A stretch of DNA of 43,082 nt, taken from the IMG/VR virus record IMGVR_UViG_3300032605_000046, positions 1 through 43,082 of that record. The stretch is one strand, 5' to 3'. This stretch comes from a virus. A program made the position numbers and the translations under genes. The notes below the pieces were generated by a model. It was not told the origin of the DNA and did not search any database. It was given only the letters and a program-made list of their open reading frames with translations. Shown piece by piece: positions 1 through 16,394 of the stretch (positions within the stretch are counted from its first letter, which is position 1; every line of letters begins with the position of its first letter).

Positions 1-327
1 AACACCTGAGGTACCGACATTAACAGTAATACTTGAAGTTGTTGCATATCCACTTGTGCTAACAGAACCACTACCTACTTGTACTTGTGGCAAAGATGTC
101 CCATTGGTACTAACCCCATTAAACATTACAGTTATCTGTTTTGCCCAAGATGGAATGCCTGTAAATGTTACAGAAGTACCACTTGTAGATGCTACAGCAG
201 TACCTTGACCAATCATGCCAACTGTACCTGTTTGGGCTGGTAAAGTAGCTGTATTTGAACCTGCTACTGATGGTGCGGATAGGGTAATTGTTCCGCTAGA
301 ATCCCCAGAAATTACGACTGAACTCAT
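1..327 (-). CDS. Tail-fibre-type virion protein, 3' part cut by the window edge
   Basis: An open frame runs from ATG at 327 to the first base, so 109 codons are visible and the C-terminus is missing. The start is preceded by AGGAGATAAT, a good ribosome site. The N-terminus (MSSVVISGDSSGTITLSAP, then ATLPAQTGTV) is the Ser/Thr/Gly-rich opening seen in many phage tail-fibre and collar-like proteins. It is followed by beta-rich, low-complexity sequence without enzymatic motifs. It is the last visible gene of the left arm and lies just downstream of two other virion-type genes. Exact role unknown; fibre tip or fibre-associated protein is an inference. Confidence 0.65.
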   Translation of the reverse strand, partial: MSSVVISGDSSGTITLSAPSVAGSNTATLPAQTGTVGMIGQGTAVASTSGTSVTFTGIPSWAKQITVMFNGVSTNGTSLPQVQVGSGSVSTSGYATTSSITVNVGTSGV

Positions 328-335
328 ATTATCTC

Positions 336-959
336 CTATGCCCATGTGCCGACAGATACGTTTGCACCTGCTGCGCCAATTGGTTTGATTTTTATGTATG
401 AACCTGCTTGTGTTGTATATGCACCACCAGGAGCTGCACTTAATGTGTATTGTGGAATGAATGTACCACCAGCGTTGATAGATACTGTACCTTTAATTAT
501 AAAGTTTACACCTTCACCGGCGCCAGTAAATGCTGCGGTAACTACTGTGCTAGATGCTGTTAAAATAGTCATGGCATTTGCACCATTTGAAGTAGTGCTG
601 ATACCAGAAGAACTCCAAGCATTTACTAAAGTATATGCACAATTATTTACAGTAGCAGTTCCACCAAATCCTAAAGCAATTGTATGTGATGTAGTTCCTG
701 CAGCTTTTAATAATGGACAAACCATCTCAAATTCATACTGTGTAGATGCAGATAATGTGACACCTACACCAAAGATAGATTGTGCTGTATTAACGTTACC
801 ACCAACTAACCCAGAGTTAAGTGCAAAGAACTGTTCATTAGGAACAATACCACGTTGAGTGCCTAGTGGAGTTGCAGCAAAGATAGTGCCGTTATACTCA
901 ATCTGACCAGCAGCAGCCGTTCCTGATAGCGTATTACTTGTTAAAGCTAAAATTGACAT
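336..959 (-). CDS. Probable virion surface or fibre-associated protein (207 aa)
   Basis: The frame starts at ATG 959 after TAAGGATATATT, a good ribosome site. The N-terminal third contains a motif around residues 28-50 (FAATPLGTQRGIVPNEQFFAL) that I associate with phage virion proteins next to fibre genes. The rest is beta-rich and dominated by Thr, Ala, Gly and Ser. No signal peptide, membrane segment or catalytic motif is seen. It sits between a short fibre-tip-like gene and the truncated fibre gene and is transcribed with them. The right arm has no visible counterpart, so it belongs to the variable gene content of the left arm. The virion role is inferred from composition and position. Confidence 0.6.
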   Translation of the reverse strand: MSILALTSNTLSGTAAAGQIEYNGTIFAATPLGTQRGIVPNEQFFALNSGLVGGNVNTAQSIFGVGVTLSASTQYEFEMVCPLLKAAGTTSHTIALGFGGTATVNNCAYTLVNAWSSSGISTTSNGANAMTILTASSTVVTAAFTGAGEGVNFIIKGTVSINAGGTFIPQYTLSAAPGGAYTTQAGSYIKIKPIGAAGANVSVGTWA

Positions 960-968
960 AATATATCC

Positions 969-1394
969 TTAAGAAATAACCCAGCGACTACCACTAGGAA
1001 CAGTTACTGTAATACCTGATGCAATAGTAATCGGGCCTACACTTGAAGCACTACGATTAGTTGTAATTGTATAGTTAGCTGTGATTGTTTGATTGTTTTC
1101 ATACATACAGTTATTAGCTACGCAATAAGCAGCAGATGTTTGTGTTGTGCCATCGCCAAAAGTTAATCCGCTAGGTGCTGAAAATGTACCTGTAATTGCA
1201 AGATTAGCAACAGTAACCAATTGTGAACTGTTAATGGTAATTGCATTTAAACCGCTTGTTTGTAATGCTAATGTGCCACCTGAGCCATTAATTACACCAT
1301 TTAAACAAGTGCCGTTATAAGTCCAACCATTTACATCGTTTAGCCACGATGCGTAAATAATGGTCTGGTTATCAATAAAAGTAGTGCTAGCCAA
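969..1394 (-). CDS. Short tail-fibre-like protein with the ITVTVPSGSRWVI end motif
   Basis: This 141-residue protein opens with STTFIDNQTIIYASWLNDVN, a segment typical of phage fibre or collar proteins (pattern ASWLNDVN). It ends with GPITIASGITVTVPSGSRWV plus two residues. The same ending closes the 883-residue fibre at 3125-5776 (final residue V instead of S). The middle is beta-rich and repetitive. Its start overlaps the end of the endonuclease VII-like gene by 8 bases. A second, shorter fibre carrying the same C-terminal element is the likely reading. It could also be a fibre fragment split by the inserted endonuclease gene, but it has its own start and complete ends. Confidence 0.65.
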   Translation of the reverse strand: MASTTFIDNQTIIYASWLNDVNGWTYNGTCLNGVINGSGGTLALQTSGLNAITINSSQLVTVANLAITGTFSAPSGLTFGDGTTQTSAAYCVANNCMYENNQTITANYTITTNRSASSVGPITIASGITVTVPSGSRWVIS

Positions 1395-1788
1395 AATGAT
1401 TCTCCTTTAAATAAGAAATGGCAGCGATTAAACTTTCTATATTATCTTCAAACATACCAATTCCACTATTACATTTAGAACATAATAAACCACGAACTTT
1501 TCCAGTTTCGTGACAATGATCAACAAACAAAGGTAGCAACTGCTCTCTTTTCTTTTTATGATTTCTTCTTAATTCAGGTTTTTTACATATTTTGCATGAT
1601 TTATTCTGTGCTTCATACATTAAAAAATAATCATCAAAATTAATTCCATATTTTCTTTTTAAATGACTGTTTACATAAGTTAAAACATATTTTTCTGATT
1701 CTCTATATTTTTGTTGGATAGCCTTTGCTTTATCCGGATTATTTTTACGCCATTCAATTGCTATTTTTGATTTATCTTTAGATAGCAT
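1387..1788 (-). CDS. Endonuclease VII-like HNH nuclease (T4 gp49 family)
   Basis: A 133-residue basic protein. A zinc-binding pair CKICKK (about residue 65) is followed by FVDHCHETGKVRGLLCSKCN, the signature of the recombination endonuclease VII family, with the catalytic DHCH and a second CxxC pair. The Lys-rich N-terminus fits DNA binding. T4 gp49 resolves branched DNA before packaging, but many small free-standing copies behave like homing-type nucleases. This copy sits immediately downstream of the gp4-like gene, where the right arm carries an unrelated HNH gene, which favours a mobile role. Confident for the fold, unsure about the biological job. Confidence 0.85.
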   Translation of the reverse strand: MLSKDKSKIAIEWRKNNPDKAKAIQQKYRESEKYVLTYVNSHLKRKYGINFDDYFLMYEAQNKSCKICKKPELRRNHKKKREQLLPLFVDHCHETGKVRGLLCSKCNSGIGMFEDNIESLIAAISYLKENHFG

Positions 1789-1797
1789 TTTTAATCC

Positions 1798-2784
1798 TTA
1801 TCTAAAGAAGCCGCCTGATAATATCCAGCCAGCATCTTTTGCTCTACCAACCAACATAGAGTCAGGATAACTAGCAGCTGCAATTGGTTGCATATTATTA
1901 CGTTTGATTGTGGCTTTAGCTTCGTTAGCAAATTTATTAATCATCTCTATTTGCACTTGTGATGCCTTGCCATACATAGGCATTAAGCGTTCAGCCAAAT
2001 TCCATCTGAGAGCCATTGAATAGCCTTGTGGCAATACAATCTCGTCATACAACGTTTCATAGTTACTAAAAATAGTAGATGAAAACATGTGCATCTCGCC
2101 TTGCGCTGGATTAGGCCATACAAATACGTTACCTGACACAGCGTTAGGATTGTAATAAAGTGCTTTAGGCCAAGGGCCATTTAATGTTTTTAAGCCAATT
2201 TGGTTATAATTTTCTAACGCTAAAATAGCTACTTGATAATCTAAACCGCCATTAGCAACAGGCTCGCCATTAGAGTTTGTATTAACTCTCACATAGGCTT
2301 GATCAATAAACAAAGGCTTTTGATAGTAAGCTGTAATGCTTTCTGACGTTACCGCAGTCGGATAAGAAATGTTTAACTCGTATGTACCTGTTTCGTTTAC
2401 TTGACCGCCAGAGCCCGTTAAAAACTGCACAATTTTAGTGCCAGCAATAATTCCTGTGCCTGTAAGCGTTTGACCTTGAGCAATTGCGCCAGAATTTAGT
2501 GCAGTAACAGTTAAAATGTTGCCTGTAATTGATCCGGTAAATGTTGCACCAATAAAGTTTTGTGTGGATGGTGTTGGCCCGATAGTGTATTGAACTTGAC
2601 CTGATATAAGAGGGAATATAATTTCAGTGGTGTTATACACCATCATATCCTCGTTAGACCATTGGTCTATCAAGTCATTAAGCATATCAAAAGCATCTTG
2701 GGCGGCATCTGGTGTCGGTGTTTCACCTGACTCTAATGCGCCAATGTCTTTTAATGCTCTTGAGATGATTTCAATTGGTTTCAT
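1798..2784 (-). CDS. P22 gp4-like tail accessory / head-completion protein, left-arm copy
   Basis: The N-terminus ([18 protein letters not shown], then [19 protein letters not shown]) and C-terminus match the P22 gp4-like family, which assembles under the portal and extends the DNA channel after packaging. P22 gp4 is about 166 residues and this protein is 328. The extra length is explained by an inserted beta-rich Gly/Thr domain at roughly residues 76-155 (pattern [13 protein letters not shown]). It is nearly identical outside this insert to the right-arm copy at 35224-36213. Upstream is a DUF7936-like gene and downstream the endonuclease VII-like gene. Finding two copies of a normally single-copy head-completion gene is a main argument that this arm is an alternative haplotype. 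Confidence 0.85.
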
Positions 2785-2792
2785 TTTTAGTC

Positions 2793-3116
2793 CTAAACAT
2801 TAGGTGTGAACACTTGGGGCTGCCAAGGCGCAGGAGTTTTAACAGATGTTTTTGCTAAATAATCCAATTGTTCATTTAGTCTTGATTCTATAATATTTAT
2901 TCCATCTACAACAGATTCTTTTTTAATTAAATCTATTACATCTTGCTCAGTAATATCGGCATAAGGCTTATCAAATTTGCCGTTAAAATACCAATTACCC
3001 TCAGTTTCAACGCTTAAATCGCCTTCTGATTCGCTTGCAGTAACGTGATATTTAGCAGACGTAATAACTTCATTATCTGCATCAACTTCTAATATTAACC
3101 AATTAAAATTATTCAT
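2793..3116 (-). CDS. DUF7936-like small fibre-partner protein (107 aa)
   Basis: The protein has the pattern of a small family seen beside phage fibres: an aromatic start ([13 protein letters not shown]), a beta region with [11 protein letters not shown], an acidic helix ([12 protein letters not shown]), and a Pro/Trp end ([12 protein letters not shown]). Two relatives occur in the right arm at 36731-37048 and 38609-38959. Each lies directly downstream of a fibre or spike gene, as this one does after the 883-residue fibre. That pairing suggests a fibre-assembly partner or minor tail component, but no catalytic residues are visible and the role is inferred. The family name is from memory. Confidence 0.65.
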
Positions 3117-3124
3117 AATTTACC

Positions 3125-5776
3125 TTATACGATTACCCAACGACTGCCTGATGGAACTGTAACTGTTATTCCGGATGCCACAGTAATTGGCCCAGCACTC
3201 ATAGCACTAGAACCACTAGGAATTGAATACGATGTAGCTACTGATTGGCTATTAACATGAAAGCCATTAGATGCAACAACTTGAGCCCCTGTTACGTTTC
3301 CAGAAGCTAAAATGTTATTAGCACCAGCATCTGTCGTAGTACCTACAGAAAAACCGCCTGATACTGATAATCTAGCTTTTTCCGCACCATTATTCCAAAA
3401 CCCCATTGGCAGGTATGTGCCTGTGCCATTGATGCCTGATACTAATTGAACGTCTGTAGAGCCGTTAGTAGCAATTAAAATCTTGCTTGCATTGGTTGGG
3501 TCTGCTGCATTAGATGCTTGCCATGAAGCTGCTGTGCTTGTGCCGTTAGGAACTGCATAGATGCCTGTAGACGAATTTGTAGTTGATGTTTTAAATAATG
3601 TTCTGCTATTAACTGTTGCGTTACTAAAATCGCCTTGATATAAAGAACTTGCATTAATTATTGTTGACGATAATAACCCTGTAGATGGCGTGTAATTTAG
3701 TTTAGTTGAGCTAGTATATTCAGTTGTTGCTGTTCCTGTAGTTACACGAGCAAACAATGGATAGTAAGCAGTTGCAGAACTTGTATCGTCTGTAATTGTT
3801 ACCCCTGTTGCTGGTGCAGCAGCCCAAGTAGGAACACCACCAGCCAATGTCATAATGTAACCATTGGTGGTTGCAGCAAGAAATGTAGTAGCCCCTGAGC
3901 CTGTTTGATATGGAACTGACCCATTAGCCCCACCAGCAATATTTGTCGCTGTGGTTGCGCTTGTAGCACTTGTAGCAGTAGCAGCATTGCCACCAATAGA
4001 TAAGCTAGATGCAGTACCTGTTAAACCTGTACCTGCCCCTGTAAAACTAGTAGAAGTAAATACACCTGTTGATGGATTGTATTGTAGTTTGGTAGAACTA
4101 GTGTATTCAGTCGCTAAGTTACCGCTTGTTTGGTTAGCAAATAATGGATAACGAGTACCGACTGTTGTAGTGTCATCCGTTACAGTTGCATAGCTTACAG
4201 GAGTAGCCCAAGTAGGAACTGCTGCACCATTAGATTGTAAGAATTGACCTGCTGTACCATTACCAATAAAACTTGTGCTTCCTGACCCTGTTTGGTAAGG
4301 AATTTGACTTGCAGCACCACCAGCTAAATTAGTTGCGGTAGTCGCTGTGGTCGCTGAACCTACAGACAAAGTAGATTGAGCCACATATTGTGGCGCAGTA
4401 GCACCAGCCGTCAACACATAATTAGTTGTGCCTAATGACAGGAATGTAGTTGCGCCAGCCCCTGATTGATAAGGCAAAGCACCAGCAGAACCACCAGCAA
4501 TATTAGTTGCGCTTGCTGCAAGCGTAGCAGAAGCCACAGCCCCACTTACAATAGAACCTAATATAGACGTTAGCCATGATGGATTTGAATAGCTACCGGT
4601 TGAATAAAGCCCATTGGTGACTGTTCCTGCATTGCCTGTAATGCCAATTCCCCAAGTTCCTGATGCGTTTGTACCTGTTGTAGAAGGTGCGCCAATCGTA
4701 TTGTAAGAAATAGTTTGTGCAACAGAGCCGTTAAATGTTGTGCCTGTTGCGCCACCTGTTCCGCTATTATTAAATGTTAGCGAATTAGGTGTGTTAGCTG
4801 TAACTGTTGTAGAACCGCCCAAACTAACTGCATTACCATTAATCGTAATAGATGAATTAGCCAAATAACTGTTAGCAATAGGTGTCGCATTCCAAGTACC
4901 TGCGGTTAGCGTTCCAACACCCGTAATTCCTGTGTAAGAACCACTAATTAAACTAGATGCAATCGTTCCGCTAGTGATTTGACTAGCAGCAATCGCAATA
5001 GATTGTGCAGATAAAGCAGTTAATTGACCTTGAGCATTAACTGTTGCGCTTAATGTTTGGCTTGCTGATCCATAAGCCCCAGCCGTTACGCTTGTATTAG
5101 TAATGCTAAATTGATTGGCAAATAATGTTAATCCTGTGCCAGCAGTATAAACGGCAGAGCCTGAGAATTGAACAAAGGTAATTGGTGTTACGTTAATAGT
5201 CCCTGTATCAGCAGATGTTGATACCCAACCTGTATTTGCTTGACCGCCATTTAAAATAACTGTGTATGCGCCTGGCACTTCTGCCCAAACATCCATGTCG
5301 GCTGCACGAGTCCAAGCACTTGCAGAAGCTATCCAAATCCCGTTTTCTGATGATGTAGATTGATTTTTTACTAATACTCTATCGCCAGCTAACGTAGTGT
5401 AAGTGTCAATAGTCTGTAACCCTGATAATGTAATGTTGCCTGTTGTGGTACATTTACACGCAGCTTTAGGGCCAAGACCTGTAGCAACAGTATCAACATA
5501 GAATTTATTAGCTAAATCTGTTGCCCCGCTAGGTGTAGTAGTTACTTGACCTGTTGTCGTTAGAACATTAGTAAAAACTCCCGTTGAGGGAGTAGTTGCA
5601 CCAATTGTCGTACTGTTAATCGTACTATTGGTTATGTTTAATCCTGATTGACTAGGATTGATGGAAGCATAAAATGGCTGACCCTGACCGATAAAGGTCT
5701 GAAAGTTGCCGTAAACGTCAAAGTACGCTTGAACAGGCAGTAAATTTTGGTCTACAGTTGAACTAGGGCCAGCCAT
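3125..5776 (-). CDS. Large tail fibre, left-arm version (883 aa)
   Basis: Residues 1-80 form a virion-anchor region (PSSTVDQNLLPVQAYFDVYG onward) almost identical to the right-arm fibre. Residues about 95-215 form a second conserved unit (KFYVDTVATGLGPKAACKC ... LAGDRVLVKNQ) common in phage fibres. The rest is Ser/Thr/Gly/Ala-rich with at least three repeats of an AGG-x5-PYQ(S/T)G-x-G-(A/S)-T-(T/S)-F unit. The C-terminus ends in SGITVTVPSGSRWVIV, shared with the 141-residue protein at 969-1394. It has no enzyme motif. Receptor binding is the expected role. After residue ~560 its sequence diverges strongly from the right-arm fibre, consistent with exchange of the distal receptor-binding part. 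Confidence 0.85.
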   Translation of the reverse strand: MAGPSSTVDQNLLPVQAYFDVYGNFQTFIGQGQPFYASINPSQSGLNITNSTINSTTIGATTPSTGVFTNVLTTTGQVTTTPSGATDLANKFYVDTVATGLGPKAACKCTTTGNITLSGLQTIDTYTTLAGDRVLVKNQSTSSENGIWIASASAWTRAADMDVWAEVPGAYTVILNGGQANTGWVSTSADTGTINVTPITFVQFSGSAVYTAGTGLTLFANQFSITNTSVTAGAYGSASQTLSATVNAQGQLTALSAQSIAIAASQITSGTIASSLISGSYTGITGVGTLTAGTWNATPIANSYLANSSITINGNAVSLGGSTTVTANTPNSLTFNNSGTGGATGTTFNGSVAQTISYNTIGAPSTTGTNASGTWGIGITGNAGTVTNGLYSTGSYSNPSWLTSILGSIVSGAVASATLAASATNIAGGSAGALPYQSGAGATTFLSLGTTNYVLTAGATAPQYVAQSTLSVGSATTATTATNLAGGAASQIPYQTGSGSTSFIGNGTAGQFLQSNGAAVPTWATPVSYATVTDDTTTVGTRYPLFANQTSGNLATEYTSSTKLQYNPSTGVFTSTSFTGAGTGLTGTASSLSIGGNAATATSATSATTATNIAGGANGSVPYQTGSGATTFLAATTNGYIMTLAGGVPTWAAAPATGVTITDDTSSATAYYPLFARVTTGTATTEYTSSTKLNYTPSTGLLSSTIINASSLYQGDFSNATVNSRTLFKTSTTNSSTGIYAVPNGTSTAASWQASNAADPTNASKILIATNGSTDVQLVSGINGTGTYLPMGFWNNGAEKARLSVSGGFSVGTTTDAGANNILASGNVTGAQVVASNGFHVNSQSVATSYSIPSGSSAMSAGPITVASGITVTVPSGSRWVIV

Positions 5777-5784
5777 GTGTTTCC

Positions 5785-6324
5785 TTAAAATGGAATTGCC
5801 GAAAGAATAATTACATCATTAGCATTAAAAGCAGTAGCAGAACCGCTGCTGTTTGCTAAAGAAGTAATAGTTGCTGAAGTTGTTGTATAAGCAGTTTGTT
5901 GAATATACAAAGTTCCAGCACTTGTTATGTTCCATCCTGTCAAAATCCATCCATTAGGTGCTGCTGGCAAACTTATTGTTCCAGTTGTTCCAGGGCTTGT
6001 TCCTACTTTTACACTAAATCCAACAGTATTCAATGCTGTAATTGTAGGGCCTGTTCCAAAACCTGAAGAAATTGTAGGTGGAGTATTAGAAAATACTAAT
6101 GCACCGCCAATGTAAGTATTTCCATTGACATTAAGATTTCCCATTGCAACTGCGCTGCCATTGATTGTTACAGTATTAGCAGTTAAAGTTGTTGCTTGCA
6201 ATGGTGCTACTAATGGTGATGCACCCTGACCAAAAAGACCTAAACAGTTTCCATTTGAATCATATTCAGCTTGAACTGACAATAGATTTGTGGAAACTGT
6301 GCTTGCGACTTGATTTGAGCTCAT
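5785..6324 (-). CDS. Small tail protein with fibre-type N-terminal anchor, left-arm version (179 aa)
   Basis: The N-terminus (ASTVSTNLLSVQAEYDSNGN, then GLFGQG) mirrors the first ~35 residues of the neighbouring large fibre (SSTVDQNLLPVQAYFDVYGN, then FIGQG). The rest is a beta-rich Thr/Ala/Ser domain ending in DVIILSAIPF. The right-arm counterpart at 42149-42622 is 157 residues with the same two ends. Its start overlaps the stop of the upstream 112-residue gene in a TAATG junction, so translation is probably coupled. The shared anchor suggests that it docks on the same virion site as the fibre, perhaps as an alternative or adaptor fibre. That function is inference. Confidence 0.65.
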   Translation of the reverse strand: MSSNQVASTVSTNLLSVQAEYDSNGNCLGLFGQGASPLVAPLQATTLTANTVTINGSAVAMGNLNVNGNTYIGGALVFSNTPPTISSGFGTGPTITALNTVGFSVKVGTSPGTTGTISLPAAPNGWILTGWNITSAGTLYIQQTAYTTTSATITSLANSSGSATAFNANDVIILSAIPF

Positions 6325-6662
6325 TATGAAATTCCTTCGCCTGGAGTAATTTCTGCGCTTGTTGCTGCGCTAGATAAGAACCATCCATTAGGTGGTAAAC
6401 CGCCAATAACAGCAACTCCGTTAGCAGGAATAGAAATAGTATTAGCAGATGGTGCGCCCAATGCTGGTGCAGTTACTGCCAAAGTTACAGCTAAATCGCC
6501 TGGCTCTGGTGGTTGCCATGACACACGAATTAAACTAGAAGTAACGTTCACAATGCGATAGCTTGTAGGATAAACGTTGTTAGACGTTTTAACCTGTACC
6601 GCAGCAGCGTTACCAACTAGGTAAGTCGGCCCCCAAGGGGTAAATGGTGAATTATAAGCCAT
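6324..6662 (-). CDS. Small virion protein, left-arm version (112 aa)
   Basis: The protein begins MAYNSPFTPWGPTYLVGN and ends SSAATSAEITPGEGIS. It contains a beta-rich core with IRVSWQPPEPGDLAV and an Ala-rich strand segment, and resembles a small single-domain tail or decoration protein. The right-arm copy (42622-42960) has the same ends and differs through the middle. The gene lies one step downstream of the 106-residue virion gene at 6673-6993. The exact 127-bp repeat that links the two arms begins at bases 6658-6660, inside this start codon region, so this is the first gene that differs between arms. Function not recognised. Confidence 0.6.
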   Translation of the reverse strand: MAYNSPFTPWGPTYLVGNAAAVQVKTSNNVYPTSYRIVNVTSSLIRVSWQPPEPGDLAVTLAVTAPALGAPSANTISIPANGVAVIGGLPPNGWFLSSAATSAEITPGEGIS

Positions 6663-6784
6663 GATTTTTCCTTTATAGACCTGCTGGCAATTGACCTTCT
6701 GGGCGAATAACTTGAATTACATAGTTACCAGCCAAAGGTGTTGCGCTTGATCCTGATACGTTAGCAAATTGAATTTGCAATGTG
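6658..6784. repeat. 127-bp exact direct repeat, internal copy (node joining the two arms)
   Basis: Bases 6658-6784 equal 42956-43082, the very end of the window. The base before it differs (A at 6657, G at 42955). The length is exactly 127, a common largest k-mer in metagenome assembly. This copy spans the first codon of the 112-residue gene and the 3' part of the 106-residue gene. It closes 6658-42955 into a 36,298-bp circle and leaves 1-6657 as a side branch. Confidence 0.9.
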
Positions 6785-6993
6785 TTAGCAGCAGTTACTT
6801 CAGCTTCTGCATAAATAATACCAGCAGTTTGAGTGCCAATAACACCAATAACAATAATTTGATCAGTTGTTAAAATGCCAGGTACAGTAAATGTTTGGTT
6901 TGATGAAGTACCTGTTACAGCAGCTGGAGTCAATGAAACTGAAAGATATGAAACGCTTAAAGCATTTCCACGAGCAATAGTAGTAGATGACAT
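6673..6993 (-). CDS. Small virion protein, common to both arms (106 aa)
   Basis: It opens SSTTIARGNALSVSYLSVSL and is a beta-rich domain with the segment QTFTVPGILTTDQIIVIGVI. It ends VIRPEGQLPAGL. No catalytic motif, signal peptide or membrane helix stands out, and its composition matches its virion neighbours. A terminator-like hairpin (7043-7067) separates it from the upstream 146-residue gene, so it may open the tail operon. The last 37 codons are repeated exactly at the right window end (42971-43082). Tail or head decoration protein is the best guess from position just after the coat gene. Confidence 0.6.
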   Translation of the reverse strand: MSSTTIARGNALSVSYLSVSLTPAAVTGTSSNQTFTVPGILTTDQIIVIGVIGTQTAGIIYAEAEVTAANTLQIQFANVSGSSATPLAGNYVIQVIRPEGQLPAGL

Positions 6994-7035
6994 GATTTTT
7001 CCTTTAAATAAGGTTAACTAATTATAGGGCTTTAA

Positions 7036-7067
7036 AGAAAAAAAGCCACACTTTTTAGGCATGGCTT
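7036..7067 (-). terminator. Rho-independent terminator after the coat-146 aa unit
   Basis: On the minus strand AAGCCA (7067-7062) pairs with TGGCTT (7048-7043) across a 13-base loop, and the stem is followed by a run of seven U residues (7044-7038). T-rich sequence on the other side makes it potentially bidirectional. It lies in the longest gap of the head region, between the genes ending at 7096 and starting at 6993. It therefore could trim head transcripts before the tail genes. Confidence 0.65.
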
Positions 7068-7095
7068 CTTCTCTTTTTTTTACATTATTTAGCTC

Positions 7096-7536
7096 TTAGC
7101 TAAAGTCGTAACCATAGATGTAAGCATCAAAAGTACCGACTACGCCAGAAGCTGTGCCAACATACACATACAATGTTTGTGCAGAGAAAGCTAAAGTGCT
7201 TTCATAAGCAGTAACAACTTGTGTACCAGCAATTGCTGTTAAGTTAGCTAAGGTTGTAGCAGCAAATACTTCTGAACCTGTACCACCGCTACCACCTGGT
7301 GCTGTGTAAATAGAAGCTACTGTTGAGCTTTCATTTGCTACTGCACCTGCGTTGTTAGCATTAGTATAGATTACAGAGGTAGGTAAATAATTATTAGTAT
7401 TATTTATCTGAACTGCTGTAGAACCTACATAGTTAGAGTTAACACCCTTTACCACAGCCAATAGACGTAAAGCCTGATCGGTTGTGACATTGGAAGGATG
7501 TCCTGAGGTGGTGACTGCTGGGCCTGGATTAGACAT
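7096..7536 (-). CDS. Putative head decoration or minor capsid protein (146 aa)
   Basis: The protein lies directly downstream of the coat gene, 28 bases from its stop. It is Ser/Thr/Ala/Val-rich and mostly beta. It contains a Gly-rich turn (APGGSGGTGSEVF) and ends FDAYIYGYDFS. No enzymatic signature is present. Small proteins encoded immediately after P22-type coat genes are often decoration proteins, but I do not recognise the family, so the role is from position only. A terminator follows its stop codon, grouping it with scaffold and coat in one transcription unit. Confidence 0.55.
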   Translation of the reverse strand: MSNPGPAVTTSGHPSNVTTDQALRLLAVVKGVNSNYVGSTAVQINNTNNYLPTSVIYTNANNAGAVANESSTVASIYTAPGGSGGTGSEVFAATTLANLTAIAGTQVVTAYESTLAFSAQTLYVYVGTASGVVGTFDAYIYGYDFS

Positions 7537-7564
7537 AATAGTTTTCCTTTTCTTTATCCGTTAA

Positions 7565-8839
7565 TTAAGCTGAAACTCGGCAAGCAAGTTCTGGATATAG
7601 AGGAGCCCAACCATACAATACGTCTACACGAGTTGGAATTGAGTCGTTGTTAATTGTGTATTGACGAACAACACGCAATGATAGACCCACTTCTTTATCT
7701 GATGCACGACCAGCAAAGTGAACACCCTCTGGCAATTCCAAGTCAGCAGTAGCCAATGTGAACGCATTGCGGTGCATAACAATGTTTTGTGGTGAAACGA
7801 TACCGTTACCACTTGCATTGTATTGTGATGCAAAGAATGTCACAGCAGCTGATGATACTGGGCTAGGAATTGAAACGTTTTGGAATTGACCGCCAGAAAT
7901 AATTGCTGGTGATACAGTTACTGAAACGCTTGAACCAGAAGCTACAGATACAGCAGATTTAACTACGAATGAACGTAGTTTGTTTGTGCCGTATGCTTGA
8001 CGGTTTTGTGGGTTGACTGCATACACGCCAGCAATTTGGAATGTATCACCAGCGTTCAAGTTGATTGTGCCTGTGTTAGCAGCAGTCAAAGTGATTGTTG
8101 AAGTTTGCGCCCAACCTGAAGTCAAGAAACCAGTCGCTGTAGATGTGTTTACAGATGCAGTTACTGTAGATGTTGAGAAGTTACCAAAAGTTTGTGACAC
8201 AATGTTTTGGTCTAGTTTCCAGTTCATACCACCTGAGTCACGACCCATCAAACCTTTAGTGTATTGGCTAGAGATTTGTTCTGTAGGAACGAACAAACCT
8301 TTCAAGCTGTCAACAGTAGCAGCTGATGTGAATGGCTCGATGATTGCTGAACGACGGCCATCACGAGGTGCGCCTTCAGAGTCAAGATATGCTTGAGCAT
8401 TTAACCAAGTATACAAGCCTGTTGGTGGTGTACCAGCAGTACCTGTAATGTTAGCTGTATTCAAAGCAGCAGTAGTTGTACCATCAAAGTCAATCTTGTT
8501 GGCAATAGCTGCAACGGCTGGTTTTAAGATACGATCTGAGAACATATCCAATGAAAGAGCCAAGTCTTGTGTTGTAAATTGTGTATCAACGTGGAACTGA
8601 GTTGAAAGCGTTACAGGTACTGAAGTTTCGTTCAAGTCCTCTACGTTCAAAGCTGGGCCAGTTGTACCAATGAAACGACCAGGTCTACGAACATTTACAG
8701 TTGCGCCAATTTTTGCGCCTACTACTGCAAATTGATCATCGTAGTTACGATCTACTTCTGATGTAAATGTTAATTCATTCTCTAAGACCATCAACGCTTC
8801 GTTGGTGATCTTGGAAATGGTGAGTAAGGTATTCGCCAT
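7565..8839 (-). CDS. Major capsid protein, P22 coat-like
   Basis: At 424 residues it is close to the ~430-residue P22 coat protein. The N-terminus (NTLLTISKITNEALMVLENE) and the following VGAKIGATVNVRRPGRF, then FHVDTQFTTQDLALSLDMFS, match the P22 coat family with its HK97 fold. The C-terminus (VLYGWAPLYPELACRVSA) also fits. The gene follows the scaffolding gene by 24 bases, and a promoter upstream of the scaffold probably drives both. It is the only coat gene in the window, so both fibre arms share one head. The central beta-rich stretch (about residues 215-330) is where P22 coat carries its inserted domain. Confidence 0.9.
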   Translation of the reverse strand: MANTLLTISKITNEALMVLENELTFTSEVDRNYDDQFAVVGAKIGATVNVRRPGRFIGTTGPALNVEDLNETSVPVTLSTQFHVDTQFTTQDLALSLDMFSDRILKPAVAAIANKIDFDGTTTAALNTANITGTAGTPPTGLYTWLNAQAYLDSEGAPRDGRRSAIIEPFTSAATVDSLKGLFVPTEQISSQYTKGLMGRDSGGMNWKLDQNIVSQTFGNFSTSTVTASVNTSTATGFLTSGWAQTSTITLTAANTGTINLNAGDTFQIAGVYAVNPQNRQAYGTNKLRSFVVKSAVSVASGSSVSVTVSPAIISGGQFQNVSIPSPVSSAAVTFFASQYNASGNGIVSPQNIVMHRNAFTLATADLELPEGVHFAGRASDKEVGLSLRVVRQYTINNDSIPTRVDVLYGWAPLYPELACRVSA

Positions 8840-8863
8840 TTTAATTCTCCAAAAAAATTAGGT

Positions 8864-9769
8864 TTATCTGATCTTATTAGCCTGACGAGCAGCTTTCCAT
8901 TGTGCGTAACTGCCATAATATTCACCATTGGTGTCTATTAAAACGTCTGCGCCCACTGATTTGCCACCAGCCAAAGGCTTGATAGGTTCAGGTGCTTTTG
9001 TATTTCTAACAGGCTCTTTGTCTTTCTTTGAAGGCTTCCCCTCAAGTTCAAGACGAGCTTCTAACTTACCAATTTCTCTTAGAGCTTTAACAGTAGGCAT
9101 TTGAGTTAGCTTAGTAGCATATTCCTCATCTGACGCTAGTAGATATAAAAGCTGTGGCCCTACATCACTTTCTAAGATGCTGTCCCGTATCTCGTCACTA
9201 ACTTGGACTGTACTAGACTGCACCATGCGTTCAAAATCAGGTATTACTTCTTTTACTTTGGCTACTTTCTCATTCCAAGCATTTAATACTTTTTCCTGAG
9301 CCTTTTGAGCCTTGCGATTAGCATCCTCAATATCTCGCTGTTTTAAAGCGTTTTCAGCACTCCACTCAGCTAACGCTTCTGCATATTCAAAAGCATCGTT
9401 AAATTGATGTGCTTGTGGCTTACCTTCTGCTTGAGTCTTTACAGGTTGTTCAGCAGGTGGGGTTTGCCTTGCTTCATACTCTTTAAGTCGCTGTTCTAAT
9501 TGCTGCGCCTTTGCCTCTGCTTCTTTGGCTCTTTGCGTAACTTTATCAAACCGCTTATTTAGCTTGTCAGAACGCTTATCAGAGTTCTGTTCTTTAGCAT
9601 CGCCCTTTGCTTCTGGTTCACTCTTATCTTCATCCTCTGTTGGCTCAGAATCTTTCTTTACAGACTCTACCTCAACTTCGGGTTCTGAATCAGCTAAACC
9701 TAATCTTTCTGCATAAAAGGTTGTTGCGTTGTCACTTGTTACTACACTACTTGCTTCTTTTTCGGCCAT
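8864..9769 (-). CDS. Scaffolding protein
   Basis: The 301-residue, highly charged protein lies between portal and coat, the standard place for a P22-type scaffold. Residues about 25-75 are extremely acidic and Lys-rich. Residues about 75-180 form a long helical and coiled-coil region (AKAQQLEQRLKEYEARQ). The C-terminal half is helical, ending in a basic tail (YGSYAQWKAARQANKIR), as expected for coat binding. It should direct procapsid assembly with the coat protein at 7565-8839 and then leave the shell. It has its own predicted promoter at 9793-9823. No protease motif was seen. Confidence 0.8.
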   Translation of the reverse strand: MAEKEASSVVTSDNATTFYAERLGLADSEPEVEVESVKKDSEPTEDEDKSEPEAKGDAKEQNSDKRSDKLNKRFDKVTQRAKEAEAKAQQLEQRLKEYEARQTPPAEQPVKTQAEGKPQAHQFNDAFEYAEALAEWSAENALKQRDIEDANRKAQKAQEKVLNAWNEKVAKVKEVIPDFERMVQSSTVQVSDEIRDSILESDVGPQLLYLLASDEEYATKLTQMPTVKALREIGKLEARLELEGKPSKKDKEPVRNTKAPEPIKPLAGGKSVGADVLIDTNGEYYGSYAQWKAARQANKIR

Positions 9770-9792
9770 GATTTCTCAAGCTCCATAAAATT

Positions 9793-9823
9793 ACTATATA
9801 TATGATAAAAAACTACTTGTCAA
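9793..9823 (-). promoter_or_regulatory. Sigma70-like promoter for scaffold and coat
   Basis: On the minus strand a perfect TTGACA (9823-9818) is followed, after 17 bases, by TATATA (9800-9795). An overlapping TATAGT (9798-9793) gives a 19-base spacer. The site overlaps the stop codon region of no gene and sits 24-54 bases upstream of the scaffold start, in a 59-bp gap. Extra transcription of scaffold and coat relative to portal makes sense because coat is needed in hundreds of copies. Confidence 0.6.
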
Positions 9824-9828
9824 TCTAT

Positions 9829-10014
9829 CTATTGTGCTTTTTCAGATTTAGCTTCTTTTAGTGCTTCTTTGATAAAAGCCTTTTGCTCTTTAAGTTTAGC
9901 TTTGTCTAGACCTGCAAAAGGGTTAGTAGACTCAGGTTCAAACTTCTTACCTGCTCTACGAGCCATTTCTCGCATTTTCCATTCAAGCGCATTATCGCCA
10001 GTTACTGTTGCCAT
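9829..10014 (-). CDS. Small charged protein between portal and scaffold (61 aa)
   Basis: A 61-residue, Lys/Glu-rich helical protein (ALEWKMREMARRAGKKFEPE, then KAKLKEQKAFIKEALKEAK). It starts 12 bases after the portal stop and is co-directional. Small proteins occur at this place in several P22-like phages, but I do not recognise a characterised function. Its high helicity and charge would fit an assembly helper or a minor scaffold component, which is a guess. Its stop lies just upstream of the scaffold promoter. Confidence 0.6.
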   Translation of the reverse strand: MATVTGDNALEWKMREMARRAGKKFEPESTNPFAGLDKAKLKEQKAFIKEALKEAKSEKAQ

Positions 10015-10026
10015 TTAATTCTCCTT

Positions 10027-12138
10027 TTAAATACCACGTTCAACTGCTTCTGCTTCTGCTTCATGTGCATCTTTCAAATCCATATTAGCCAAAAGTAATG
10101 CTAATTGGGCTTTCATTTGCTCAATCTCTTTTTGTGATTCAGTCTTAATTACTGTGTCATGTGCAATAGTATCGGTACGCAATTGGCTATCCTCACGTTT
10201 AACTTGAAGTTCCATAGTTTTACGTTGAGTTTCAGCTTCTTGTTTTTGCTGTTCAATAGATGCACGATATTTCATGTCCATTTGCAATGCTTCCAACTGT
10301 TGTTGTAGCTGTTGCATTTGTGCTTGTTGCTGTTTGATAATCATTTGCGCTTCTGGTGGTACGTCTGACTTATCATCAACTTGTGCTAATGGGTTAGCAG
10401 CAGCCAATCGGTCAGCAATAATATCTGCGCCAGGGAAATCCATGTTGCGGAATATCAAATCACCAGCTTGTTGCATTAAGTTAGGATCAGCAGTTAGTAA
10501 AGTCATCATAGAGTCTACTGCTTCTTGACGTTTAGATGCGTAGCCTGGGCCTGTTTCCATCACAATATCGTATTCGCCTACAGTGACGTCATTTAATACT
10601 TTATCAACACCCATCTCATCTTGAGATTGCTCATTAATTTTAACTAACTCACCTTTACCATCAGCACCAATGATGCGTAATACTCGTTCTTTATCATAAA
10701 TATGTGGAATTAAATCTAAGCAAATACGGCCTGATTGACGAATTGAACGAGTCAAATTATCGTAATAGTGGAAGTTAGTCATGTCAGTTTGTTGCTGCTG
10801 ACCATTTAACGCTTTACCACTAATCATGCCTGTTGGAAGCTGACTAGGATCGTAAATACCTACAACAGCCATCAAATCAGAGTTTAAGCCTTGTAAAGCT
10901 GTGACCATTCCTGTTGGTGGTGGCTCAGGCTGAATACGTTGTGGAACAGGTGCTGGGTTGCCATCAGAGTCGGTTTGTTTATAGCGCAATACAGGCATTG
11001 ATTTAATGTTAGCTGTATTCCATTCCATCTCGTGGCCTTCGTCTTGGCCTTCTGCGAGTAGATATTTGGCTTTAGGTGCTAACGCTACTGACTCAGTTAA
11101 TGCTGTAGACCAGAAGTTATACATCCGTTGTGGGTCTTTAGCCATGCGAGTAAGACCAAATTTCTTTTTCTTACTATCAACAATTATTTGCTGACCATAA
11201 ACAGGTACAACAGGAATATATTTACCAGGCCAATCCCTTTGTTCTAGGATTTGCATACCTGTTAATTTAGCCCACTTGATTTGCTTTTTAACTGTTTCAC
11301 GCTTAGATACAACGTAAACACCAGCATCCATCATAATTGATTCAGATGGTTTTTCATCCTCATAGCAGGTAGTGCCATCAGACAATAATAGTAATTTGGT
11401 GCGTTTGTATTCAGTCCAAAAATACTCAGCGATACGAATATCCTCACGAGTAATCCATTCTGATTGTGAGTCACCTGTGCCACGAGGGGTAAAGCCACCA
11501 CCATCGTCTGCGCCAGGATACATTTTACGGAATGATTCTTTAGAGATAACTTCTGTGATTAAACACTTTTCAGCATCAGAGCCATCAGGCTCATTAGAGT
11601 TAGGATCAAAGTAAACCATAAAAGCGTTTTCAATGCGCTTAATGTATAACTCTTGGTCAAAGCTATCTGGACTTGGATAGTCGTGAATAATGCGCCAATA
11701 GCCCCATCCCATACGCACAGCAAAGTCAAAAGCGTGGTCGTATGCTGCATCTGCATCAGATTGATTTTCAATATGTCTTAGGATGCCTGTAACGATTTCA
11801 GCGACTTTCTCGTCTGCTTCGTCATTCATGCCATGAGCCACCATGCGTGGGCGTTGTTGTCTTTGTTGGTTACATATTTGACGAACGTATGCATCAATCT
11901 TGTTAATAGTGAGATAGGGTCTAGATTCTAGTAAGCGTGAGTTTTGGATTTCTACAGGCCATTGATCGCCACCAGCAAACTTTAAATCATCTAGTGCTTC
12001 TACACGATTATTTGAGTCATTCTCAGAACAAAATCGTAAATATTCTTTGGCTTCAGTAATAACGCTTGATTCGTAATCATCAGGCTCGCCAAACTCTGTT
12101 GTATAAATACCGCCATTACCGCTATCTTGTGTTGCCAT
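10027..12138 (-). CDS. Portal protein, P22-like
   Basis: At 703 residues it is close to the ~725-residue P22 portal. The N-terminal region (LDDLKFAGGDQWP, RPYLTINKIDAYVRQICNQQ) and the central stem and wing sequence (MGWGYWRIIHDYPSP; FMVYFDPNSNEPDGSDAEK) are characteristic of the P22 portal family. The last ~110 residues are Gln/Lys/Glu-rich coiled coil, matching the barrel helices of P22 portal. Twelve copies should form the vertex through which DNA is packaged and ejected. The gene lies 10 bases downstream of the large terminase gene, an arrangement usual for packaging modules. Confidence 0.9.
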   Translation of the reverse strand: MATQDSGNGGIYTTEFGEPDDYESSVITEAKEYLRFCSENDSNNRVEALDDLKFAGGDQWPVEIQNSRLLESRPYLTINKIDAYVRQICNQQRQQRPRMVAHGMNDEADEKVAEIVTGILRHIENQSDADAAYDHAFDFAVRMGWGYWRIIHDYPSPDSFDQELYIKRIENAFMVYFDPNSNEPDGSDAEKCLITEVISKESFRKMYPGADDGGGFTPRGTGDSQSEWITREDIRIAEYFWTEYKRTKLLLLSDGTTCYEDEKPSESIMMDAGVYVVSKRETVKKQIKWAKLTGMQILEQRDWPGKYIPVVPVYGQQIIVDSKKKKFGLTRMAKDPQRMYNFWSTALTESVALAPKAKYLLAEGQDEGHEMEWNTANIKSMPVLRYKQTDSDGNPAPVPQRIQPEPPPTGMVTALQGLNSDLMAVVGIYDPSQLPTGMISGKALNGQQQQTDMTNFHYYDNLTRSIRQSGRICLDLIPHIYDKERVLRIIGADGKGELVKINEQSQDEMGVDKVLNDVTVGEYDIVMETGPGYASKRQEAVDSMMTLLTADPNLMQQAGDLIFRNMDFPGADIIADRLAAANPLAQVDDKSDVPPEAQMIIKQQQAQMQQLQQQLEALQMDMKYRASIEQQKQEAETQRKTMELQVKREDSQLRTDTIAHDTVIKTESQKEIEQMKAQLALLLANMDLKDAHEAEAEAVERGI

Positions 12139-12148
12139 AATATTTTCC

Positions 12149-13438
12149 TTAGCTCATCCAAGAGGATATGCCATCATAATTCATTGGTTTTCGTTTAACA
12201 ACTTTCTTCTCTTGTATCATTAAGCCAATGTATCTAAACGCATCTGCGCCATGAGAGTATTGATCATGCACAGGCTTTTGACTAAATGCTTTAGTATCTG
12301 GATCAACATCATATCTATAATGACGTAGACAATCTAGACCAGCAGCGGTGTTGTTTTTGTCAAAGTAACATTGGCTAAAGATAGTACGAGCAGCATTGAT
12401 AGAGTCAGCAACAGGCACCCTGCCAATAATTCTGACATTATATCCCGATGAACGCACAATTTCCTCAATACTTCTGCCATGAGATGCAAGGGTTTTGTTT
12501 TGTGCATCGTGTGGTAAATATAGTGTGTCGTATACATAACCAAACGTCTGCATTTTAGCTAGGATTTCACTTATGGTTGTTTGTGTTGTTTCATAGTAAC
12601 GGATAAGTCTAGTTTCCATTCCTACAAATTGTACGAACCAAATAGCTGTAGCGTCTGCCCAACCAATATCGAAAACAGCCATAACAGGCTTAATAGGATC
12701 ATAAGGTACATTAGTAATACGATTATCTTGTTCAGCACGTTGCATCTCTTTGGCAAATACTGCGCCATCAATGGTTGATCTAGTAAAGCCTTCCCATACG
12801 TTTTGATAGGCTTCAAAGTCTTTATTCTTTAGCGACTGACGTTCTAAATCCAATACATCAGGGAACCAGGGATTGTCATTCCAATTAACTTTTTGAACTA
12901 CAGCGTTGTCAGGCGGTGAGATAACAAAGCGTTTATAGGTTTCATCCGTAGGCAACTCAGGATTAAACGTAATCCATATCTCTGAATTTTCTTTCCGAAT
13001 AGTAGGAATAAGAATATCCCAGCTAGTTTGCGTTACATTGTTGGCTTCCTCTACCCAGCAATAATCAATACCCTCAATAGACTTTAAGCCGTTGACGTTA
13101 TTTTTAATGCCAGCAAAGATAAACTCTGTGCCGTTAGTTCCACGAATAGTGGTTTGAGTGATTTCGTAATGCGCCTCTAAACCAAGATTATAGATTTGGT
13201 CTACTAATAACTTATGTACGGAGTCTTTAATTGATGTTTGAAATTCACGAGCACACAGTATGCGTAATGTAGTTTGAACACCCATGCAAAGCAATGCACG
13301 AGCAACTGAATGAGATTTACCAGCACCACGACCACCATACAATATGCGATAGCGTGAGTTTTTTGGTTCAAATAGGCATTTTAGCTTGGCTGGAAACTGT
13401 GGCCAAACAAAACCATTACTGTCCTTCTTTGTTTCCAT
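12149..13438 (-). CDS. terL: Terminase large subunit (packaging ATPase-nuclease)
   Basis: The 429-residue protein has a Walker A loop at residues 34-42 (YGGRGAGKS). A Walker B with catalytic glutamates sits at 124-131 (IDYCWVEE), a coupling motif at about 155-160 (WITFNPE), and a C-terminal RNase H-like nuclease domain begins with FDIGWADATA (D257, D262). PHDAQNK lies further on. This is the Terminase_3/PBSX-type architecture. It should cut concatemers and drive DNA through the portal, encoded immediately downstream. Its 5' end overlaps the small terminase gene by 23 bases, which suggests coupled translation. Confidence 0.92.
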   Translation of the reverse strand: METKKDSNGFVWPQFPAKLKCLFEPKNSRYRILYGGRGAGKSHSVARALLCMGVQTTLRILCAREFQTSIKDSVHKLLVDQIYNLGLEAHYEITQTTIRGTNGTEFIFAGIKNNVNGLKSIEGIDYCWVEEANNVTQTSWDILIPTIRKENSEIWITFNPELPTDETYKRFVISPPDNAVVQKVNWNDNPWFPDVLDLERQSLKNKDFEAYQNVWEGFTRSTIDGAVFAKEMQRAEQDNRITNVPYDPIKPVMAVFDIGWADATAIWFVQFVGMETRLIRYYETTQTTISEILAKMQTFGYVYDTLYLPHDAQNKTLASHGRSIEEIVRSSGYNVRIIGRVPVADSINAARTIFSQCYFDKNNTAAGLDCLRHYRYDVDPDTKAFSQKPVHDQYSHGADAFRYIGLMIQEKKVVKRKPMNYDGISSWMS

Positions 13439-13775
13439 TAGGCTCTACGAATGAAATATTGATACCTTTTACTTCTGCACCTTCACCAGCAGCAATCTCA
13501 GTCACGTTGGTTTCTTTCCAACCTGCTCTAGTCTTTAACCAAAAAATCATAGCTGCTACGTTGCCGTTTTTAGCTTGAGCAAATAAACCTTGACCAATGG
13601 AAGCGTTGGCATCGATTCGCCCTTCCTCTAATTCTTTCTTGTAATGCTTGCGTAATGTGTCATCAGTAATATCTAGCTTGGTTGCTATGTCAACGTAACG
13701 AATACCCACAGCACTTAAACTACGCACCAGCTTGCGTGAGGACTCGTCAGGGATGTGTTCTATGCCTTGTGCCAT
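13416..13775 (-). CDS. terS: Probable terminase small subunit
   Basis: A 119-residue protein whose N-terminal half is a helix-turn-helix (YVDIATKLDITDDTLRKHYK). The following segment (AMIFWLKTRAGWKE) is typical of small terminase and phage DNA-recognition subunits. It overlaps the large subunit gene by 23 bases and ends in a flexible acidic tail. The expected role is recognition of the packaging site and loading of the large subunit. Assignment rests on the HTH, the motif and the strict position before terL. Confidence 0.8.
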   Translation of the reverse strand: MAQGIEHIPDESSRKLVRSLSAVGIRYVDIATKLDITDDTLRKHYKKELEEGRIDANASIGQGLFAQAKNGNVAAMIFWLKTRAGWKETNVTEIAAGEGAEVKGINISFVEPNGNKEGQ

Positions 13776-13776
13776 T

Positions 13777-14976
13777 TTATAACTCCGAAACTAACTGTGC
13801 TTTCTTGCCGGTAAAGTCTTCCCAACGCTTAACAATAACGTCACAGTAAGCTGGTGATAGCTCCATCATAAAGCAATCACGATTGTTTTTTTCACAGGCA
13901 ATAAGCGTTGAACCTGAACCACCAAACAAATCTAAAACATTTTGTTTATATAGACTTCCATGACGTATAGCACGTTCACATAACTCAATAGGTTTTTTAG
14001 TAGCGTGTTCCTCATCTTTTTTGCGTTGAATGCGCCAAACATCTTGATATTCTTTTTCGCCCTCTTTGTTAGTAGCTAAAGGTGGCTTTCCTTTTTTACA
14101 TACATGAATAAACTCGTGTGTATATTTATAATCGCTACCTAACCCATGAACCATTTTGTCCCACACAATTAAATTAGTAAATTTCCAATGGTTTTTAAGA
14201 TGTGGCACTAACTCATATGATCTGCGCCAATCTAAACATACATAAATAAATGAATTGTCTTTAGTAGCTATATCATAACTAACGCAAAAATCAGCCATAA
14301 ACTGTTGCCATTCCTCATCAGAATAGTCGTCGTCGAACATATGGTTCAACCAGGTTGAACCAGAGTTCGATTTGGCAGACATTCCTGTGTTATATGGCGG
14401 ATCAGTAAAAACCATGTCAGCTTTCTGTCCATCCATTAACTTATCCACAGCATCAATGCTTGTGCTATCGCCACACATCAAACGATGATTGCCTAATAGA
14501 TATATATCCCCCAACTTTGTAATAGGCTCGTCAGGAACGTCAGGAACGGCATCCTCATCGGTTAAGCCTTCAATCTGTTCTGGCTCTAATAATTTAGCTA
14601 ATTCATCAGCATTAAAGCCTAATACAGATAGATCAAAGTCATCGTCAGCTAGGTTTTTAAGTTCTAGCGTTAATAGTTCAAAGTCCCAATCAGCGTTTAA
14701 AGCTAGTTTATTGTCAGCAATGATTAAGGCTTTTTTCTGAGCATCAGATAGATGGGCCAATTCAATAACTGGTACTTTATCCATCTTGAGCTTGCGAGCA
14801 GCAAGTAAACGACCATGACCAGCAATAATGCCACTGTCCCCATCAACAAGAATAGGATTAGTCCAGCCAAACTCTGTAATGCTGGCTGCGATTTGTGCCA
14901 CCTGCTCATCAGAATGTTTCCTACTGTTATTGATGTAAGGAATTAAGTCTTTAATTGGTCGCTGTTCTATTTTCAT
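13777..14976 (-). CDS. ParB-like domain fused to a DNA methyltransferase
   Basis: Residues 1-90 form a ParB/sulfiredoxin-like domain (IKDLIPYINNSRKHSDEQVA, IIAGHGRLLAARKL). Residues ~155-395 form an amino-methyltransferase with the catalytic DPPY at 192-195 and the SAM-binding DLFGGSGST at 349-357. The catalytic motif precedes the SAM motif, so this is the beta-type order, giving N6-adenine or N4-cytosine methylation. Such fusions are frequent in phages and prophages next to terminase genes. They probably modify phage DNA against host restriction. Specificity cannot be read from sequence. The start overlaps the stop of the upstream small gene by 4 bases. Confidence 0.88.
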   Translation of the reverse strand: MKIEQRPIKDLIPYINNSRKHSDEQVAQIAASITEFGWTNPILVDGDSGIIAGHGRLLAARKLKMDKVPVIELAHLSDAQKKALIIADNKLALNADWDFELLTLELKNLADDDFDLSVLGFNADELAKLLEPEQIEGLTDEDAVPDVPDEPITKLGDIYLLGNHRLMCGDSTSIDAVDKLMDGQKADMVFTDPPYNTGMSAKSNSGSTWLNHMFDDDYSDEEWQQFMADFCVSYDIATKDNSFIYVCLDWRRSYELVPHLKNHWKFTNLIVWDKMVHGLGSDYKYTHEFIHVCKKGKPPLATNKEGEKEYQDVWRIQRKKDEEHATKKPIELCERAIRHGSLYKQNVLDLFGGSGSTLIACEKNNRDCFMMELSPAYCDVIVKRWEDFTGKKAQLVSEL

Positions 14977-15173
14977 TCGTTTGCCATTGAGTCAGAGTTA
15001 GCTTCTGCTTCATTAATATCAGCTTGAACTTCTGGGCTATTGTTTAGATTAGTCCATTGATCTTGAAGTTCCTGTGGCACACCAGGCTGATAGATTAAAG
15101 TGTTAATGTCTGCTTTGATTTCAGCATCGCTTTGAGGGATAGGGTAAGGTAAATAAATGTTAGGTGCTGACAT
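14973..15173 (-). CDS. Small hypothetical protein (66 aa)
   Basis: The start at ATG 15173 (MSAPNIYLPYPIPQSDAEI) is preferred over a longer frame because it lies immediately after the stop of the upstream gene (TAA at 15177-15175). The protein is acidic, with a Pro/Tyr-rich N-terminus and helical remainder (VPQELQDQWTNLNNSPEVQA). It overlaps the methyltransferase start by 4 bases. I do not recognise it. Confidence 0.5.
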   Translation of the reverse strand: MSAPNIYLPYPIPQSDAEIKADINTLIYQPGVPQELQDQWTNLNNSPEVQADINEAEANSDSMANE

Positions 15174-15174
15174 A

Positions 15175-15378
15175 TTAAGCCTGTGGTTCTGTTTGTTCTG
15201 GTACAGGTTCAGCAATAACAGGTTCTGTTACTTGTGCTTGAATAGCTGCTGATGCTTGTGGTAATGCTTGACCATGAATTTTAGCAATCAATTGAGCTAC
15301 GTCAGCATAAATACCTGCTGAAATATGTTTAAGCACTGCTTCTACTTCTTGTAATTCTAATTCTAGTTTGATAGCCAT
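15175..15378 (-). CDS. Small helical hypothetical protein (67 aa)
   Basis: The first ~45 residues are amphipathic helix (LELELQEVEAVLKHISAGIY, then VAQLIAKIHGQALPQ). The tail is Pro/Glu-rich with EPVIAEPVPEQTEP. Its ATG shares a base with the preceding stop codon (TAATG). Proteins with this layout, a short helix pair plus a Pro/Glu tail, are common in phage genomes near the packaging genes, but I know of no function. Confidence 0.55.
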   Translation of the reverse strand: MAIKLELELQEVEAVLKHISAGIYADVAQLIAKIHGQALPQASAAIQAQVTEPVIAEPVPEQTEPQA

Positions 15379-16052: not shown

Positions 16053-16082
16053 GATTATCTCTCCATAGTTGTGGTTAGTAAG

Positions 16083-16106
16083 CCTTGAGAGTGATGGCTC
16101 TCAGGG
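16083..16106. promoter_or_regulatory. Stem-loop between two small genes
   Basis: CCTTGAGAG (16083-16091) pairs with CTCTCAGGG (16098-16106) over a 6-base loop. On the minus strand it has one C-A mismatch, and no U-tract follows it. It lies in the 66-bp gap about 30 bases upstream of the GTG start at 16052. It may be an mRNA processing or stability element. A terminator is unlikely. Confidence 0.35.
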
Positions 16107-16118
16107 TTTACGACTTAA

Positions 16119-16343: not shown

Positions 16344-16394
16344 GATTAATCCTTTTAGCTAAAAAGTCTGCCAATTGCAGAACTTAATTGTAGT

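Follow-up and report, generated by a model that had tools for sequence, protein, structure and literature searches.

A virus record that very probably joins two sister P22-like podoviruses by assembly, and gene exchange among their relatives

The IMG/VR virus record IMGVR_UViG_3300032605_000046, a single entry of 43,082 bp that was analysed over its whole length (the window), is very probably a chimera that assembly made out of two sister P22-like podoviruses. The closed circle of one, called R here (6658-42955), is preceded by a stretch supplied by the other, called L (1-6657). The public record is thereby corrected: it holds one complete genome, of 36,298 bp, and 6,657 bp that stem from a second phage. 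Taken as it stands, it would lead to wrong gene counts and to a spurious "two-module" phage. R, L and their relatives also offer a clear instance of environmental P22-like phages swapping adsorption genes one at a time, and they show that assemblies can misjoin at the very gene that has recently moved.

Shape of the record and source of its left arm

The record has the shape of a lollipop, with a closed circle and an extra tail (Table 1). Its last 127 bp (42956-43082) exactly copy positions 6658-6784, a repeat which implies that the contig entered a circular path from a side branch, made one lap and stopped on re-entry, and which agrees with the assembly logic based on k = 127 that was put forward in a first-pass annotation of this DNA. 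The right arm, p106, p146 and the coat gene are contiguous without a break in three independent contigs. Circular relatives measure 33,597 and 36,633 bp, and near-complete contigs of other relatives 33-35 kb.

The left arm could be followed beyond the window on the 19,143-bp contig IMGVR_UViG_3300032665_000261, which includes window positions 1-6815 with zero mismatches. Leftward, this contig continues into its own gp10 (51% amino acid identity over the aligned codons, dS 1.35), an ejection protein with 43% amino acid identity and very divergent internal proteins, and it regains an R-like core only at window positions 25,415-26,633 (92% DNA identity). Rightward, the 106-aa gene is 99.7% identical to that of R in DNA, p146 has 47% amino acid identity and the coat gene 93.6% DNA identity. 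Because the contig runs on into its own gp10 and ejection genes on one side and its own p146 and coat on the other, the left arm is assigned to a sister phage, L, of which this contig covers only a small part of the core (about 1.2 kb on one side and 1.6 kb on the other). The first-pass annotation had placed two host-recognition modules on one phage core, and this had to be given up, as L has a core of its own. A left arm from a distant phage with a different core, which it had named as grounds against its own reading, was right as to the different core but not as to the distance. The two arms that it compared are real, but the divergent region reaches well beyond them, in L spanning from about 26,634 round to 42,955. 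Its wider view, that the arms come from different genomes of a closely related set of phages within which adsorption genes are exchanged, was upheld.

As a separate observation, the L contig (L204) ends on both sides (17909-19143 and 1-112) in runs identical to the R core, of 126 and 112 bp (window 8550-8675 and 25415-25526), which suggests that it broke where its core turns identical to that of a co-occurring R-like phage.

Table 1. Features of the 43,082-bp window, with strand and the basis for each assignment
Feature	Position	Strand	Basis
Left arm, adsorption genes of phage L, foreign to the circular genome	1..6657	-	100% identity to IMGVR_UViG_3300032665_000261
Endonuclease VII-type gene, left arm only	1387..1788	-	phrog_2633, E 3e-30
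gp4-like tail adaptor, L copy	1798..2784	-	89% aa to R copy, dS 0.89
Long tail fibre, L allele, 883 aa	3125..5776	-	homologous to R fibre
179-aa short fibre-like protein, L allele	5785..6324	-	46% aa to R allele
112-aa protein, L allele	6324..6662	-	elsewhere always paired with L-type p146
Closed genome of phage R, 36,298 bp	6658..42955	.	127-bp end repeat; uninterrupted contigs; circular relatives
127-bp assembly overlap, copy 1	6658..6784	.	exact repeat
Recently exchanged block: 106-aa gene (6673-6993) and ribosome-binding site	6658..7005	-	1 mismatch (6816) to L; dS 0
p146, R allele	7096..7536	-	47% aa to L allele
P22-type major coat protein	7565..8839	-	phrog_283, E 5e-72; 53.9% aa to Xanthomonas phage PBR31
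P22-type portal protein	10027..12138	-	phrog_156, E 4.5e-144
Terminase large subunit	12149..13438	-	phrog_3717 and phrog_2
678-, 528- and 287-aa genes, putative ejection/internal virion proteins	26635..31132	-	divergent between R and L
gp10-like head-closure protein (Hc3)	32149..34587	-	phrog_578, E 7e-90; 51% aa, dS 1.35 to L
HNH_3 endonuclease adjoining gp4, right arm only	34590..35168	-	PF13392
gp4-like tail adaptor, R copy	35224..36213	-	phrog_12985, E 2e-41
182-aa protein	36223..36771	-	phrog_26190
Beta-helix tail spike, pectate-lyase-type, right arm only	37048..38589	-	PF12708, E 6.9e-10; phrog_28781 tail spike
356-aa protein, putatively fibre-like, right arm only	38961..40031	-	local 41% aa to left-arm fibre over 51 residues
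Long tail fibre, R allele, 702 aa	40032..42140	-	tail fibre and virion families; 76% aa to left-arm fibre over 704 columns
157-aa short fibre-like protein, R allele	42149..42622	-	predicted all-beta, pLDDT 87
112-aa protein, R allele	42622..42960	-	80% to L allele
127-bp assembly overlap, copy 2, contig end	42956..43082	.	exact repeat

The join and how it may have arisen

At the join, R and L are identical over 6658-6815, show a single difference at 6816 and diverge at 7006, that is, one mismatch in 348 bp. The join thus lies within a shared segment longer than k, of 158 bp if exact identity is required and 348 bp if near-exact. From the nearest L-specific base (6657) to an R-specific base the distance is 160 bp, which exceeds k = 127, so no 127-mer links a base specific to the L arm with one specific to the R core. 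In independent records, each side of the join is found on a different genome. Contig 3300032562_000994, which is 100% identical to window 6658-14301, starts exactly at 6658, indicating that an equivalent graph branch existed in a second assembly.

Exact-pattern scans of IMG/VR were used to follow the alleles on either side. The L allele of the 112-aa gene was found on four contigs (3300032665_000261, 3300025429_000404, 3300021139_000343 and 3300025598_000383), all four with an L-type p146 and coat; of these, 3300025429_000404 and 3300025598_000383 are 99.7% identical and so amount to hardly more than a single case. For p146, the R allele was likewise present on four contigs; in three of these the 112-aa gene is of the R type too, and the fourth starts at 6658. 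The same scans gave no record outside the window in which an L arm is paired with an R core. The L contig crosses the shared 348-bp block itself, and the pairing of L-type p146 with the L-type 112-aa gene is backed by the three other contigs, among which L211 and L280 are nearly identical and at least L208 and L211 are without L's 106-aa allele.

A recent recombination event would have moved the 106-aa gene between the two lineages and left the near-identical 348-bp block in both R and L. An assembler working at k = 127 would then have collapsed this block, entered it from the L arm, lapped the R circle once and stopped on re-entry, a route that we infer. It is the identity of the 106-aa gene in R and L that let the assembler join the two genomes. 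Misassembly of this kind, in which coexisting viruses that have similar regions end up on one contig, has been documented (PMC5610896; PMC10563150). The case for a chimera is built from contigs, linkage in relatives and dS, and read pairs may have supported the join.

The same join could be read as a real but rare recombinant, an L arm on an R core caught in mid-exchange, with the 106-aa gene as the homology bridge for the whole adsorption region. In its favour, alleles in the group are indeed transferred one gene at a time, the 348 bp in common would suffice for homologous recombination, and the assembler did join the L arm to the R core. This reading is nonetheless improbable, given that the pairing occurs in none of the four contigs whose 112-aa gene is of the L type and in none of the three R-type p146 contigs with a visible arm, that the L arm runs into a divergent gp10 and ejection set, and that the link is backed by no single k-mer. 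The chance that both adsorption arms truly stand in tandem on one 43-kb genome, as their contiguity in the record would have it, is close to nil: the overlap is exactly the 127 bp of the assembly k-mer, the right arm is joined directly to the core in three contigs, and the relatives are 33-37 kb long with one gp4 each. Tandem modules in relatives, an outcome that the first-pass annotation had raised, were absent, since gp4, reached in 25 of the 83 fetched loci, was present in a single copy in all 25.

It might also be held that no genes were exchanged at all, and that the adsorption genes of one clonal lineage simply diverged faster under selection. Host-recognition genes are indeed known to be variable, and amino acid divergence is higher there. 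However, dS is not expected to be inflated by selection on proteins, and between R and L it was 0.66-1.43 in the adsorption and ejection genes and 0.92 in p146, as against 0.07, 0.12 and 0.21 in three core genes, with 0.56 in a 75-aa core gene adjoining the border and 0 in the 106-aa gene. This contrast is incompatible with a single clonal history and means that genes were exchanged; together with the abrupt allele switches seen in relatives, it makes purely clonal divergence very improbable. An assembly chimera of two phages with a history of exchange is the reading retained here.

Gene content of the arms and the core

The two arms part where the first-pass annotation had placed the boundary, at the start codon of the 112-aa gene: identity ends precisely between 6657 and 6658, and not one matching base precedes that point. 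Homologues follow in a common order, with identities of 80% for the 112-aa proteins, 46% for the 179- and 157-aa proteins, 76% for the fibres, 48% for the 107- and 105-aa proteins and 89% for the gp4-like proteins. Of the two anchors that had been proposed to be shared between the arms, the gp4-like protein (89% amino acid identity) stood; the other, fibre residues 1-80, was drawn too short, as homology extends over about 704 residues (76%). The stretches of about 90 bp noted as identical between the arms were found to be 92 bp (5544-5635 and 41908-41999) and 91 bp (5709-5799 and 42073-42163). The reported differences in spike and endonuclease were also borne out, with the PF12708 spike and HNH_3 gene on the right only and the endonuclease VII-type gene on the left only. 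Also extra in the right arm are the 356- and 182-aa proteins, and in the left arm three small proteins. An HNH_3 endonuclease occupies the equivalent place in L113, L097, L098 and MW202674.

For the 356-aa fibre-like protein (38961-40031), the searches gave no family matches. The model of the 157-aa protein had as its best Foldseek match the fibre tip of the R1 pyocin, a weak one (E 0.03), and the 106-aa protein is predicted to be all-beta (pLDDT 90). Sequence searches of the PDB with profiles of the 106- and 157-aa proteins found nothing significant. A resemblance of the 106-aa model to tailspike C-terminal domains was set aside, as its Z of up to 7.2, with an rmsd of 3.3 over 87 residues, falls below the level that identifies a family. 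The N-terminal part of the 182-aa protein (about 95 residues, 18-112) recurs on different proteins and at different genome places in relatives, including L204 (1228-1755) and L177 (15471-15794), the latter being the start of the PBR31 tail spike, and is probably a portable virion-attachment domain.

In the core, the terminase (phrog_3717) is followed in order by P22-type portal, scaffold and coat genes (phrog_156, phrog_8865 and phrog_283), and a gp4 adaptor (phrog_12985/phrog_637) and gp10 head-closure protein (phrog_578) are present, both with annotated homologues in MW202520 and PBR31. Judged by the sequences of their head and packaging genes, R and L are P22-like podoviruses. Among the three genes at 26635-31132, the 287-aa protein matches phrog_598, "DNA ejection", and the 528-aa protein has weak similarity to putative internal protein B of PBR31; the 678- and 528-aa genes are putative ejection or internal virion proteins on the basis of their position and that similarity. 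Residues 171-199 of the gp10-like protein gave a CBM_5_12 match just under threshold (25.9 bits against a cut-off of 26.2). Elsewhere, at 17846-18968, adjoining genes contain repeated segments of 35-40 bp (families D7, D9 and D10), some copies of which are 93-94% alike, suggesting local gene duplication.

Exchange among relatives and known systems

Relatives of L show where its 106-aa gene may have come from. The two nearest to it, L208 and L211, have L's coat, p146 and 112-aa alleles but other 106-aa alleles, and L's 106-aa gene was therefore most likely imported from the R lineage (R to L). This gene, which the first-pass annotation had counted as core, is thus itself a freshly exchanged piece. 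L211 has an otherwise L background, but its 157-aa gene is the R allele and its fibre is R-like at the start and L-like beyond. Nor did the first-pass idea of a module swap between two states survive, as relatives combine alleles of p146, p106, the 112- and 157-aa genes and segments of the fibre one gene at a time. Among 50 records in which all four genes were present, clustering at 90% gave 32 allele combinations; no complete set emerged from a strict four-gamete test on these clusters, many of whose alleles are rare. Closely related cores carry divergent host-recognition genes at one place, and the allele mixing and dS contrast indicate that these alleles recombine independently of the core. 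The distance from coat to gp4 varies from 2.7 to 8.2 kb in relatives and is 0.7 kb in PBR31, which is without the cassette.

To judge from such sequence comparisons, adsorption and ejection genes are exchanged one by one between phages whose cores are about 92-97% identical in DNA. The 91-92-bp segments and the 348-bp block point to ordinary homologous recombination through conserved patches as the likely means. The motif AAAGGAAAAATCATG, at the starts of the 106- and 112-aa genes, was considered as a general boundary motif and rejected; the exact 15-mer occurred in 3 of 23 and 3 of 19 cases in relatives, and its scarcity marks it as an ordinary ribosome-binding site and not a dedicated exchange motif. 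As fibres, spike and adaptors would meet the host surface, swapping them should alter which hosts can be adsorbed, and the gene families involved suggest that exchange probably changes the host surfaces that can be bound.

The case is a further example, in the P22-like group, of the already known shuffling of phage pan-genomes (metaviromic islands). In phages of cryoconite holes, coexisting module variants shuffle independently on shared cores (Bellas et al. 2020, PMC7468147), and there as here related cores carry homologous variants of each module, with host-recognition genes and homing endonucleases variable. That study used read mapping across metagenomes and near-identical cores, whereas the cores here are mostly 92-97% identical and the evidence comes from contigs only, through an assembly join and relatives. 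Marine phages have variable host-recognition islands (Mizuno et al. 2014, PMC3909814), in which tail-fibre and receptor-binding genes likewise vary between close coexisting phages, most of all in their C-terminal parts; those islands were recognized by low read recruitment, and the present one by allele mixing in the P22-like group.

At the DNA level, a search among phages gave almost no near matches. Among individual phages, the Manatee Spring phages MW202520 and MW202674 share the order terminase, portal, scaffold, coat, small proteins, fibre, variable genes, gp4 and gp10, and their coats are 78% and 77% identical in amino acids to that of the window. They have other distal adsorption genes, and their circular genomes measure 33.6 and 36.6 kb. 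Xanthomonas phage PBR31 (MT119766) has homologous portal, coat, gp4 and gp10 proteins (35-56% amino acid identity) but, with 729 bp from coat to gp4, has no fibre cassette there. Several of the samples behind these records may be bog-lake metagenomes. Relatives in genome collections come from a Methylococcales MAG, Burkholderiales and others. The first of these (L195, QVQD01000042.1) is a 34-kb contig of the phage group, with a coat 81% identical, that was placed in a bacterial genome bin; it is possibly a mis-binned free phage and gives only a weak hint of the host. In MW202674, the coat gene (L176, 6570-8085) is annotated as two separate CDS that enclose a small ORF, which may be an insertion or an intron-like element.
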